Source: Schaalia sp. HMT-172 (GTDB lineage Bacteria > Actinomycetota > Actinomycetes > Actinomycetales > Actinomycetaceae). Taken from it: a DNA stretch of 64,000 nt. The DNA is taken from contig NZ_CP130058.1 in assembly GCF_030644365.1 (NCBI RefSeq), forward strand, positions 868,001 to 932,000, given 5' to 3'. Both the position numbers and the translations under genes were made by a program. The notes under the pieces are model-generated. The model saw nothing but the letters and a program-made list of their open reading frames with translations, searched no databases and was not told where the DNA came from. Shown here in pieces: positions 21,146 through 27,864 of this stretch. Positions within the stretch are counted from its first letter, which is position 1; each line of letters opens with the position of its first letter.

Positions 21146-21277
21146 TTCCCCAACAATGTCGCACGTAATTCCCATGTAAACCTTTCAAACATTAAAATGT
21201 GGTCGTTGGAATTGCAACGTTTGTGGGCGGTGTTAAAACCTGACCGGGGGGAATTACGTGCGAGATTTGGGTAGGGG
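21146..21277. repeat. AT-rich inverted-repeat element, copy 1 (variant arms)
   Basis: The left arm TCGCACGTAATTCCC (21159-21173) pairs perfectly with GGGAATTACGTGCGA (21249-21263). Between them is the near-palindrome CGTTGGAATTGCAACG. It aligns along about 130 bp with the reverse complement of copy 3, but both arms carry CACGTAATT in place of CATGCAATT, so pairing is kept. Function unknown. Confidence 0.8.
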
Positions 21278-21789: not shown

Positions 21790-22679
21790 TCACCCTCAAC
21801 TCCATCAGTCACACGTATCCGGGAGAGAGTGAGGCGGCGCTGCGCGATGTGTCCCTCACTCTCGAGGATGCCACCGTCACAGCCCTCGTCGGCCCCAACG
21901 GTTCGGGCAAGACGACCCTCATGCAGATCCTTGGTGGCCTGATGGTCCCCACCTCGGGGAGCATTGCCATCGACGGTAGCCAGGCCAGCGGTGACGACCT
22001 GCTCACCGGCTCGATCATCGCTTCCTCCGCCCGCGACTTCGATAACCTGTCCAGCCAGTCCCTCGTCACCTATGCGCGTCTGCGACCCACCTGGGACGAG
22101 CAGCTTTTCGCCCACTACACCCAGCGCTTCGACCTGACAGTCAACCGCAAGTTTGTGCGCAAGCTCTCCGGCGGGCAGGCAGCCATTTTCTCCGGCTCGA
22201 TCGCCCTGGCGTCGGGCGCGCCCCTCACCCTCCTCGATGAGATCCAGGCGCCCCTGGACGTGCCCACGCGCTATGCGCTCTACGAGGAGATCCTCGCCCT
22301 GGCGGGAGAGGTCATGGAAGGACAGCGAGCACCGCGCCGATTCATCATCTCCTCGCACATGGTGTCCGAACTCGAAAAGGTCGCCGAAGACGTCGTCGTC
22401 TTGAAAAAGAGTGAGCTTCTCGCTCACGAGAGCGTCGACGACTTCACCTGCAGAGTCTGTGCACTGACCGGCCACGCCTCCGATGTTGAGCGCTTCCTCG
22501 CCGCCCACCCGGACCTCGCCCTCATCGCGAGCCGCGAACTCGGCCCCACGCGAGAAATCGTCGTGGACCTGCGCGCTAGCGCCGTCGGAGAAACTGAGCT
22601 AGCAACCCACTCCCTGACCTCTTCGCCCTGTTCCTTCCAGGACGCCTTCGCCTACCTCATCCAGGAGAACGACCAATGA
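21786..22679 (+). CDS. ABC transporter ATPase of GntR-controlled exporter
   Basis: This 297-residue ATPase has Walker A GPNGSGKTT, signature LSGGQAA and Walker B LTLLDEIQAPLD. The residue after DE is Ile where Pro is usual, and the segment after the signature is shortened. The H-loop is IISSHMV. An additional C-terminal region of about 80 residues follows. Such YtrB-like ATPases power exporters or stress-responsive transporters of cell-wall-active compounds. ATGA overlaps on both sides couple it to its neighbours. The substrate is unknown. Confidence 0.9.
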   Translation: MITLNSISHTYPGESEAALRDVSLTLEDATVTALVGPNGSGKTTLMQILGGLMVPTSGSIAIDGSQASGDDLLTGSIIASSARDFDNLSSQSLVTYARLRPTWDEQLFAHYTQRFDLTVNRKFVRKLSGGQAAIFSGSIALASGAPLTLLDEIQAPLDVPTRYALYEEILALAGEVMEGQRAPRRFIISSHMVSELEKVAEDVVVLKKSELLAHESVDDFTCRVCALTGHASDVERFLAAHPDLALIASRELGPTREIVVDLRASAVGETELATHSLTSSPCSFQDAFAYLIQENDQ

Positions 22680-23380
22680 GCACCGCAACCACCGTCTCCC
22701 GCACCCCCAGCGCCTGGCGCCTCGGCATGGTCAGTATCTGGCCTGCAGTCCTTTCCTGCCTCGGCGGCATCGCCGCGCAGTATGCACTCAACGCACTCTT
22801 CGCCATCGTCTTCGGTGCAAGCAGCGATAGGGGCCCGGAGTCCGTCAGTCTGGCAGCCTTTAACGCAGCTTTAGTTGTGGGGATCGTCCTCGTCGTTGCA
22901 GGGGTCAACCAGACGATCTCGTACATGCGCGCAGGGTCGCTGAGCGGAGCACCGCGCCGCACCCTGGCGCTCGCGAGCTACGTCACCTCCGTCGTGTGCA
23001 TTGCCATGGGCAGCATCATCTGGTGGGTGCTCATCCTGGTCCGGCCGTACCTGTTTTTCATGCCGAAAACGGTCTACACCCCCGGCGTCGACACCTGGTT
23101 GCTCGTCGTGGTCTTTTGGATCACCTGTGACGCCGCAGGTCGCCTCGGCGCGAACGTGTTCCGGCGTCGTGGTGGGGGATGGAGAGTCGCCATCGCGTCG
23201 TTCGTGGGCGCCCTTACCGTCGCCGTCCCGGCTGCCTGGCTGCCGCTGACCCTCATTCACAAGGCCGGAGTCACCGGTCCCATGCCCCCGTCCCTCTGGC
23301 TGTTGGGAATCATTCCCCTCGTCGTCGTGATCGCGAACTGGCGCCTGACCCTCACGGGCAGGATCCGCGGCCTCAACTGA
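22676..23380 (+). CDS. ABC transporter membrane subunit of GntR operon
   Basis: A 234-residue protein with about six hydrophobic segments (for example AVLSCLGGIAAQYALNALFA and AALVVGIVLVVAGVNQTISYM) and basic cytosolic loops. No family signature is recognised, but its 4-bp overlap with the ATPase gene and its size make it the membrane half of the exporter. It ends 37 bp before a shared-stem terminator. Confidence 0.8.
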   Translation: MSTATTVSRTPSAWRLGMVSIWPAVLSCLGGIAAQYALNALFAIVFGASSDRGPESVSLAAFNAALVVGIVLVVAGVNQTISYMRAGSLSGAPRRTLALASYVTSVVCIAMGSIIWWVLILVRPYLFFMPKTVYTPGVDTWLLVVVFWITCDAAGRLGANVFRRRGGGWRVAIASFVGALTVAVPAAWLPLTLIHKAGVTGPMPPSLWLLGIIPLVVVIANWRLTLTGRIRGLN

Positions 23381-23417
23381 ACGTCAGTTGGGCTTTGGGC
23401 GCGTGACCCCAGACCCG

Positions 23418-23460
23418 GCCCCGGCCTCGTTCCCTCCCGTTGGAGCGACGAGGCCGGGGC
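23418..23460 (+). terminator. Shared-stem terminator after the GntR-ABC operon
   Basis: GCCCCGGCCTCGT / ACGAGGCCGGGGC is a perfect 13-bp stem followed by TGTTTTA. Confidence 0.75.
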
Positions 23461-23580
23461 TGTTTTATGCATTCGGGCGTGTTGTGGTGGCGCCATGTGA
23501 GTGTCCAGGCGCTGCGAGTTGCTGTGGGGGGATGCTCAGGCGCTACTTGTTGCTGAGTGCGGCACCGTAGTTCTGTGCGC

Positions 23581-23705
23581 GCCCTGCAATTTCGCATGCA
23601 ATTCGATGATGGAATGTTCAATCGTATGCTGAAAATGGCGGAATTTCAACGATATTATTTCATCGCATGAAATAGGTAAAGGGGAATTGCCTGCGACTTT
23701 TGGGG
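23581..23705. repeat. AT-rich inverted-repeat element, copy 2
   Basis: The left arm TTTCGCATGCAATTC (23590-23604) faces GAATTGCCTGCGACTTTTGG (from 23684), with one mismatch in the GCATGC core. The inner part GGAATTTCAACG and the AAAGGGGAATTGC end align with copy 3. The interior is more diverged than in copies 1 and 3. Confidence 0.75.
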
Positions 23706-23837
23706 TGCTGTGCTTGGTGAGCGTGGGTGGTGGCTGTCGGCGCTGTCAGCTCTGTTGGTGCTGGCATGCGCGCATGTGGATAGGTTCGAAGTTGGCGTGC
23801 TCGCACTCGCCGTAGCGGAGCCTGCCCCTCCTGATCC

Positions 23838-23934
23838 GGATAGGTTACGACGATGTGGATAGGTTATTGACATCTGGATAGGTTAATAACCTATCCGGAT
23901 CTGCATAACCTATCCGGATGCTCACAACCTATCC
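23838..23934. repeat. 19-bp-phased GGATAGGTT array, three direct and three inverted
   Basis: GGATAGGTT starts at 23838, 23857 and 23876; its complement AACCTATCC starts at 23888, 23907 and 23926. Spacing is exactly 19 bp within each half, and the two inner copies form a 21-bp perfect palindrome. All six 9-mers are identical while the 10-nt linkers vary. An extra isolated copy lies at 23778. This looks like an iteron or operator array. The glyS promoter begins about 115 bp later. Confidence 0.85.
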
Positions 23935-24050
23935 GCGAGCGCGCCGGGCGAAGAGCGCCGCAGGGCCCCGCCAGAACTCCCGGCGCGCACCTGTGGTGGG
24001 ATCCATGAGCGCGGAGGGGCCCGGAGGCGCCCGAAACAGTAGTTATCGGC

Positions 24051-24056
24051 TAGTAT
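24051..24056 (+). promoter_or_regulatory. Probable glyS -10 box
   Basis: TAGTAT lies 51 bp before the start codon; no good -35 is visible. The transcript would have a short leader with AAGGAG at 24095-24100. Confidence 0.45.
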
Positions 24057-24106
24057 CGATGGCGACACGACAGCCAGTCGTGCCCCAAATACTCAAGGAG
24101 TGACAA

Positions 24107-25495
24107 GTGGCTAAGGGACCCTCCCGCCTCGACAACGTGATCAGCCTGGCCAAGCGCCGCGGCTTCGTCTTCCCCTGCGGTGACATCTACGGTGGCACCC
24201 GCTCTGCGTGGGACTACGGCCCGCTCGGCGTGGAACTGAAGGAAAACATCAAGCGCGCCTGGTGGAACGCCATGGTCCGCCGCCGCGCCGACGTCGTCGG
24301 CTTGGACTCCTCCGTCATCCTCCCGCGCGAAGTGTGGGTCGCCTCCGGCCACCTCAAGGCCTTCACCGACCCGCTCATCGAGTGCCTCAACTGCCACAAG
24401 CGCGCCCGCCAGGATCAGCTCATCGAAGAGCTCGCCGAAAAGAAGGGCGTCGAAGAGTCCTCCCTGAGCAACGCCGACATCGCCTGCCCCAACTGTGGTG
24501 TGCGCGGCCAGTGGACCGAGCCCCGCGCCTTCTCCGGCCTGCTCAAGACCTACCTTGGCCCCGTCGACGACGAGGCCGGCCTGCACTACCTGCGCCCCGA
24601 GACCGCCCAGGGCATCTTCGTCAACTACGCGAACGTCATGAACGCCGCGCGCAAGAAGCCGCCGTTCGGCATCGGCCAGATCGGCAAGTCCTTCCGCAAC
24701 GAGATCACGCCCGGCAACTTCATCTTCCGTACCCGCGAGTTCGAGCAGATGGAACTCGAGTTCTTCTGCAAGCCCGGCACCGATGAGGAATGGCACCAGT
24801 ACTGGATCGACTACCGCAAGGCCTGGTACGTGGACCTCGGCATCGACCCGGAGAACCTGCGCGAGTACGAGCACCCCAAGGAGAAGCTCTCGCACTACTC
24901 CAAGCGCACCGTCGACCTGGAATACCGCTTCGGCTTCCAGGGCAGCGAGTGGGGTGAGCTCGAAGGCATCGCCAACCGCACCGACTACGACCTGACCGTC
25001 CACTCGCAGGCCTCCGGCGCGAAGCTCGACTACTTCGACCCGAACACCAAGGAACGCTGGACCCCCTACGTCATCGAGCCCTCTGCAGGCCTGACCCGTT
25101 CCCTCATGGCCTTCCTCATTGAGGCCTACCACGAGGACGAGGCCCCCAACGCCAAGGGCGGCGTCGACAAGCGCGTCGTGCTCAAGCTGGACCCGCGCCT
25201 GGCCCCCGTCAAGGCCGCCGTCCTGCCCCTGTCCCGCAAGCCCGAACTGACCGGCCCCGCCCAGGAGCTGGCCGACGAGCTGCGCGGTATCTGGAACGTC
25301 GACTACGACGACGCCGGCGCCGTGGGACGGCGCTACCGTCGCCAGGACGAGATCGGCACGCCCTTCTGCATCACCTACGACTTCGACTCGATCGAGGACC
25401 ACGCCGTCACCATCCGCGAGCGTGACACGATGGAGCAGGTGCGCATCCCGCTCGATAAGGTCAAGTCGTACCTGATCGAACGCCTGGGCTGCTGA
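24107..25495 (+). CDS. glyS: Glycyl-tRNA synthetase (homodimeric type)
   Basis: This 462-residue class II synthetase charges tRNA-Gly. Motif 1 region [17 protein letters not shown], zinc pair [13 protein letters not shown] with CPNCG, the [12 protein letters not shown] block, motif 2 [20 protein letters not shown] and motif 3 [14 protein letters not shown] are present, with the anticodon-binding domain from about residue 355. It is the alpha2 enzyme, not the alpha/beta form. GTG 24107 has AAGGAG 6 nt upstream and gives the usual N-terminus. It probably leads an operon with the tRNA-modifying enzyme downstream, which starts after one base. Confidence 0.96.
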
Positions 25496-27733: not shown

Positions 27734-27864
27734 TTCCCCCAAAAGTCGCATGCAATTCGGTTGCCCGAATTTTTTGGGGAGTCTACAAACGTTGGAATTG
27801 CAACGACCGTATTTCAATATGTGAAAGGTTGACAGGGAAATTGCATGCGACATTGTTGGGGAAC
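27734..27864. repeat. AT-rich inverted-repeat element, copy 3
   Basis: The left arm AGTCGCATGCAATTC (from 27744) pairs with AATTGCATGCGAC (27839-27851). The outer flanks CCCCCAAAA and TTGTTGGGG extend the symmetry. Inside are GTTGGAATTGCAACG and a nested hairpin AATTCGG/CCGAATT. Its reverse complement matches copy 1 almost end to end. Confidence 0.8.

Follow-up and report, generated by a model that had tools for sequence, protein, structure and literature searches.

A clade-specific family of phased, inverted word arrays at gene ends in the Schaalia odontolytica group, a putative lattice of protein sites

CRISPR loci consist of longer repeats that are all oriented alike and separated by unique spacers. 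The iteron arrays of plasmid and phage origins are short direct repeats placed about two helical turns apart with variable linkers, and Tn7-like ends carry several transposase sites per end, the two ends being inverted and unequal. REP elements and BIMEs are described as interspersed intergenic units, often in alternating orientation, that favour convergent and tandem gene ends, and the same reports present the proposal that REP elements have a structural role where genes converge (PMC1525189, PMC3733652). The binding sites of Noc (NBS) and of SlmA are described as tens of sequence-specific sites around the chromosome (PMC4331003, PMC7468209), and Noc is described as nucleating on 16-bp sites (PMC8429893).

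Here we compare with these systems an array that lies upstream of glyS in Schaalia sp. HMT-172, in a window of 64,000 nucleotides (positions 868001-932000 of the single 2,533,704-bp contig of this genome, called G000 below). It belongs to a family of some fifty nearly identical intergenic arrays. We have filed the family as an interspersed intergenic element, and it is probably a chromosome-wide element and not a switch for glyS.

The array at glyS and its family

The array spans 97 bp (23838..23934) and consists of three forward and three inverted copies of the word GGATAGGTT. The left arm holds the outer, middle and inner words on the plus strand (23838..23846, 23857..23865 and 23876..23884), and the right arm holds the inner, middle and outer words on the minus strand (23888..23896, 23907..23915 and 23926..23934). 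All six are exact copies at the positions given in an earlier note on this DNA, and the 19-bp period reported there is exact in both halves. The central palindrome of that note was recovered as well, with perfect arms (10+1+10) around a central A; an odd-length palindrome necessarily has an unpaired central letter. A seventh copy, likewise seen before, lies on the plus strand 60 bp from the array and out of its 19-bp phase (23778..23786). These seven exact copies in the window compare with a mean of 0.12 and a maximum of 1 in dinucleotide shuffles of the window. Upstream, 457 bp separate the array from a plus-strand ORF of 234 aa that looks like a membrane protein by eye (22676..23380), and downstream the array ends 172 bp before the start of the plus-strand ORF 24107..25495, which we take to be glyS, as the earlier note did. 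A GC-rich inverted repeat just 3' of the upstream gene (23418..23460, plus strand) is perhaps that gene's own terminator, and the same gap holds a copy of a second, unrelated dispersed repeat (23588..23705).

Across the 2.53 Mb chromosome GGATAGGTT occurs in 178 exact copies (79 + 99), against 1 for a reversed-pattern control, and pairs of the word at 19-bp spacing number 84 against 0. The earlier note had proposed such a count, with many unphased single copies as the sign of a 9-mer that is simply common. In the window and 27 further stretches, which together hold 177 of the 178 copies, 171 copies are in phase with another word and only 6 are unphased. A six-position model places at least 48 arrays in these stretches, a lower bound as arrays elsewhere without any exact 9-mer would be missed. 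The arrays fall into 34 intergenic gaps as delimited by a home-made gene caller, and 10 of these gaps hold two to four arrays.

To describe the design of the family we used G000 and six relatives, in which 168 arrays were detected; 161 with a usable centre were kept and 7 were dropped. Exactly 3+3 words is the modal design (77 of 161 arrays), and at least three words are present on the left arm in 142 arrays and on the right arm in 148. The outer word GGATAGG is 97-100% conserved at each position (708 words), a figure inflated by exact-word fetching of the relatives' arrays and by counting words only if they have at most two mismatches from GGATAGG, and the two letters that follow are TT in 431 words, AA in 111, TA in 101 and rarely AT (12). 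The earlier description of conserved words with free linkers holds for the words only: the 708 linkers of the 161 arrays have a consensus near A-Y-G-n-n-C-A-T-[CG]-Y, and the complete 19-bp unit reads about A-Y-G-n-n-C-A-T-n-Y-GGATAGG-W-W. Arrays of 5+2 and 2+5 words at glyS in other genomes suggested that the total number of units is constant and only the centre slides; this was rejected, as arm lengths are uncorrelated (r = 0.10).

Most arrays are polarised. The inverted inner words lie 12 bp apart, start to start, around a central triplet that is AAT or ATT in 148 of the 161 arrays. Position 7 of the two inner words reads C/G in 59 arrays, G/C in 58, G/G in 43 and C/C in 1. Exactly one inner word thus carries C at this position (G7C) in 117 arrays, neither in 43 and both in a single array, against about 22 C/C arrays expected under independence by arithmetic from these counts. 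The glyS array is of the G/G kind, its left inner word having G where many other arrays have C. Within the 117 polarised arrays, words ending in TA or AA are more frequent on the C arm and the opposite arm is mostly TT. Between orthologous arrays the C side is the same in 56 pairs and flipped in 3.

The outlying word at 23778 has counterparts elsewhere in G000, where lone words at 1830293 and 1830514 (L150) also stand 60-62 bp outside an array; this spacing occurs at three places, and the sequence between word and array is largely different. Additional GGATAGG words in the same orientation and no more than 200 bp from an array number 19; five of these, in three different places, are at a distance of 60-62 bp. 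Words at this distance may be an auxiliary site or chance.

Distribution, conservation and placement

A survey of 200 genomes of the bacterial family found the central palindrome GGATAG-N9-CTATCC in 14 to 46 copies in 10 of them, all in the genus of the window, with 0 or 1 copy in the other 25 genus genomes and 0 to 2 in the remaining 165. A glyS gene was found in 32 of the 35 genus genomes, the three without a match being array-free, and the ten array genomes are those with the ten highest glyS identities (97-100%; next 92%). The array family is confined to these 10 of 35 genus genomes, which are the Schaalia odontolytica group, a group of oral bacteria. An exact word-pair scan of database contigs returned 109 stretches, of which 103 lie in Schaalia odontolytica FDAARGOS_732, Schaalia sp. 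ORNL0103, Actinomyces sp. HPA0247, A. bouchesdurhonensis and the records NZ_JVOJ and JVKM, and six are stray (Aquimarina 2, Methanothrix 2, Anaerolineae 1, Bacillota 1). NZ_JVOJ and JVKM are titled Sanguibacter keddieii 250_SKED and Xylanimonas cellulosilytica 352_XCEL; both labels look wrong, and the records appear to belong to the S. odontolytica group. Neither an exact-pattern scan of viral contigs nor blastn against plasmids and phages gave a match to the array words. In the nearest relative without arrays (G006), a scan of 300 kb showed no phased 3+3 array of any word, where only 2-3 would be expected at the density of G119.

Within the clade, the array lies upstream of glyS in seven of ten genomes (G000, G019, G011, G023, G010, G147 and G182), with 3+3, 5+2 or 2+5 words. 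It is missing there in G119 and G185, in which the gap is short and which both carry arrays elsewhere, and the contig of the tenth genome, G022, gives no view of the gap. A search of relatives for an array that stays with glyS had been suggested in the earlier note, with absence from all close relatives as the outcome that would count against it; such absence did not occur. Flanking sequence pairs 100 of the 120 arrays detected in six relatives with an array of G000, and at 28 of the 34 places of G000 one or more of the six relatives also has an array. Over the 100 orthologous pairs, identity is 95% in the word core, 85% in the last two word letters, 76% in the linkers and 61% in the 90-bp flanks, against 50% for random pairs; retrieval of the relatives' arrays by exact word pairs biases core identity upwards, a bias to which the linker-to-flank difference is less exposed, and orthologous arrays are not independent of each other. 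By position, 21 of the 34 places could be resolved in G119, of which 7 have at least two words per strand, 1 is partial and 13 have at most one word. One of these 13 apparent absences (1829887-1830713) is a projection error with the array present and others may be as well, which makes the absences an upper bound (up to 12 of 21). When G119 was compared for empty sites and target duplications, the seven aligned gaps shared only short anchors. Arrays have been both kept and lost or gained between species.

The 34 array gaps lie between convergent genes in 18 cases and between tandem genes in 16, glyS included, and none is divergent. In the same sequences, 41 gaps of 200 bp or more lack an array, and of these 6 are convergent, 23 tandem and 12 divergent. 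The convergent preference (18 of 34 versus 6 of 41) gives a Fisher p of 0.0005, with orientation counts that are approximate because the gene caller missed some genes. Fifty neighbour proteins (of 61 listed and one ORF) were searched in Pfam and are of mixed function, including ribosomal L9 and L7/L12, a penicillin-binding protein, a PASTA kinase, RNase H, MurB, a PTS permease and MscL, with no replication-initiator family among the 50. Two array places adjoin an IS256/Mutator-type transposase gene; this transposase was rejected as owner of the arrays, as the ends of the element do not carry the words. The small genes between arrays look like ordinary neighbours. One ORF pair between two arrays (L141 3034-4046) appears by eye to be HEPN-type and HTH-nucleotidyltransferase, a possible toxin-antitoxin.

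Sites of the Noc/SlmA type are excluded from the terminus region, and a sparse region of G000 (about 1.09-1.77 Mb) led us to consider such exclusion for the arrays. The pattern is not firm, being significant for the raw places but not for merged clusters or for G119. Kolmogorov-Smirnov tests on distance from dnaA gave p values of 0.009 for the 34 places, 0.088 for 24 merged clusters and 0.15 in G119. One of the 24 clusters of G000 lies in the fifth of the chromosome farthest from ori, and the largest array-free stretch has a p of 0.33 in G000 and, at 681 kb, 0.0495 in G119. Our own arithmetic puts the centre of the largest gap, in both G119 and G185, away from the point opposite dnaA. No link between array polarity and replichore was seen by hand among the G000 arrays.

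Other repeats occupy the same gaps. A second dispersed intergenic element of 105-106 bp, with inverted ends TCGC[ATGC or ACGT]AATT, is found in the window at 21159-21263 and 27746-27850, with the diverged copy at 23588-23705 already mentioned. Its 13-mer TCGCRYGYAATTC occurs 139 times in G000, 131 in G010 and 140 in G023, and only 5 times in G147 and once in G182; these last two genomes do carry GGATAGG arrays. A further dispersed family, several hundred bp long with internal direct repeats (L141 14320-14960, L147 4748-5076, L020 2170-2610 and L145 5405-5760), lies in gaps near 505.8, 1518.3, 2178.8 and 1080.7 kb of G000. Two gaps of G119 (L196 and L192) hold a different inverted repeat, seen by eye, with ends like GCGCGAAAAAGTTCGCC. 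The gap-filling repeats seem to differ between species.

Arm pairing, rival readings and a proposed lattice

The earlier note had pointed out that each word can pair with its mirror copy as RNA or cruciform. The words do allow a strong hairpin; at glyS the predicted fold of the array, for which the words alone suffice, reaches -56.5 kcal/mol (z -9.8) if transcribed. Mirror positions should co-vary if pairing between the arms mattered, and we looked for co-variation in the linkers, at position 7 and in folding energy and found none. The similarity of mirror linkers, out of 10, is 5.66 versus 5.80 for shuffled pairs (117 arrays) and 4.25 versus 4.72 (96 arrays). Furthermore, 131 real arrays fold with a mean of -49.0 kcal/mol versus -52.3 to -53.6 kcal/mol in five sets of swapped halves; that is, halves exchanged between arrays fold better than the real arrays do. 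In contrast, the end pairs of the second repeat family agree in all 17 copies of 105-106 bp that match its end pattern in the fetched stretches (ATGC/ATGC 11, ACGT/ACGT 6), a set from which diverged copies that miss the pattern, such as 23588-23705, are left out. The lack of co-variation argues for duplex DNA rather than a hairpin as the form in which the arrays would act, and the idea that pairing is the purpose of the array is not supported. Arm pairing in a transcript is possible, but not visibly selected.

In our view it is improbable that the array is transcribed into an RNA hairpin which terminates both of two converging transcripts, even though this would account for the convergent preference and the predicted fold is very stable. 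In addition to arms without co-variation and swapped halves that pair better, G7C is uncompensated in 117 of 161 arrays, and a separate GC-rich inverted repeat (23418-23460) belongs to the upstream gene. An intrinsic terminator was rejected, as a search of 23300-24150 found no complementary stem followed by a T-run and the arms do not co-vary. No Rfam family reached the gathering score in the 13 loci scanned, and none relevant appeared at E up to 1 at glyS, where the only matches are two microRNA families far below the gathering score (E 0.032, over the array, and 0.96). We give still less credence, very little indeed, to a cooperative operator or attenuator of glyS. The position of the array 172 bp upstream of the start codon, in seven of ten clade genomes, would suit such a role, but the same array occurs in 33 other gaps beside genes of mixed function, two genomes with arrays at other places, G119 and G185, lack it upstream of glyS, and the gap has no T-box match at E up to 1. 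Among the protein-bound options listed in the earlier note, conserved words in fixed phase agree with what we find and a chromosome-organising site was included; a glyS control element is not supported, given these 33 other gaps, their mixed neighbours and the two array genomes that lack it at glyS.

The main rival to a protein lattice is an interspersed repeat without host function (REP/MITE-like) that is spreading now or did so once, with gene-end placement as tolerated insertion and unit slippage keeping the words alike. Confinement to one clade fits this reading, as do local multiplication (two to four arrays in 10 of 34 gaps), units homogenised within arms, the other dispersed families in the same gaps, and loss or gain between species at up to 12 of the 21 gaps resolved in G119. 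It is harder to reconcile with the 28 of 34 places common to at least one relative, with words better kept than linkers at orthologous sites (a difference biased by exact-word fetching), and with C/C inner words in 1 of 161 arrays. Nor was there a Y1/RAYT transposase match in the 35 genus genomes or a match in viral contigs (exact pattern), plasmids or phages (blastn). On balance we consider this repeat rather unlikely, though a good deal less so than the hairpin.

The reading we prefer, with moderate confidence, is that the array is a clade-specific interspersed element that acts as double-stranded DNA and forms a lattice of about six predicted protein sites. Each 19-bp unit would be a putative site for a sequence-specific protein that recognises GGATAGG and the partly fixed linker, with protein molecules side by side on each arm and head to head at the centre. 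Neighbouring molecules could touch, since the 19-bp unit falls slightly short of two helical turns. The two inner sites, 12 bp apart start to start, are probably too close to be occupied together, so that one inner word would be left bare; this would explain why G7C may stand in one inner word but not in both. The bound array may then be a structural mark rather than a glyS operator, either insulating transcription units from each other, topologically or transcriptionally, or organising the nucleoid, as has been proposed for BIMEs; this is the step of the lattice model that we word most cautiously. That the arrays sit at gene ends, are absent between divergent genes and have neighbours of mixed function renders an operator improbable and points to a structural role. 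More tentatively, we propose a chromosome mark in one actinobacterial clade: a polarised nucleoprotein lattice in which a dedicated putative protein forms two runs, each of about three subunits, that meet head to head; the lattice would stand at about 34 gene ends and might insulate or relieve converging transcription or fold the nucleoid. As 16 of the 34 places lie between tandem genes, glyS included, a promoter further downstream may be the target of some arrays.

In a small actinobacterial chromosome, some fifty arrays with phase and polarity imply a DNA-binding factor particular to the clade. No extra copy of a ParB-type protein marks the array genomes: 8 of 10 have one ParB_N match, and G147 and G019 have two, the second of G019 below the cut-off. 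A Noc-like system gains no support from these matches. Lsr2 shows no array-specific pattern across the array genomes. In the open-licence literature we found no description of the GGATAGG array family, the search by word letters being judged on the best ten of 2,431 matches. The arrays should be good bait for their predicted binding factor. S. odontolytica XH001 is described as the host of the epibiont TM7x, with a saturated transposon library (PMC12369343), and the question could be tested in this strain if it carries the arrays.

Comparison with known systems

The arrays do not belong with CRISPR loci, as the earlier note had judged; their words are 9 nt long, their halves are inverted and their linkers follow a consensus, as opposed to longer repeats in one orientation. 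They share with iterons short direct repeats at about two helical turns, but occupy 34 chromosomal places with no replication-initiator neighbour and no plasmid or phage match. Like Tn7-like ends, the arms are multi-site, inverted and unequal; unlike them, the array has no interior, and no transposase was found with the array words. The family resembles Noc and SlmA sites in comprising tens of putative sequence-specific sites around the chromosome, and differs from them in its phasing, in having no firm ori-ter pattern and in the single ParB match of 8 of the 10 array genomes.

REP elements and BIMEs are alike in placement, the array family being interspersed, intergenic, clade-specific, locally multiplied and enriched between convergent genes. 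Units of REP/BIME are palindromes with arms kept complementary, in lineages that have a RAYT transposase, and bind gyrase, IHF or Pol I. The arrays differ in their lattice, with 3+3 copies of a 7-9 bp word in a 19-bp phase, and in lacking hairpin co-variation, the 19-bp unit having only GGAT/ATCC ends. Furthermore, a RAYT search (Y1, PF01797) gave no match in any of the 35 genus genomes at E <= 0.001. Membership in REP/BIME fails on hairpin co-variation and on the RAYT gene. If the arrays insulate convergent genes, they would have reached a BIME-like role without REP hairpins or RAYT transposases.
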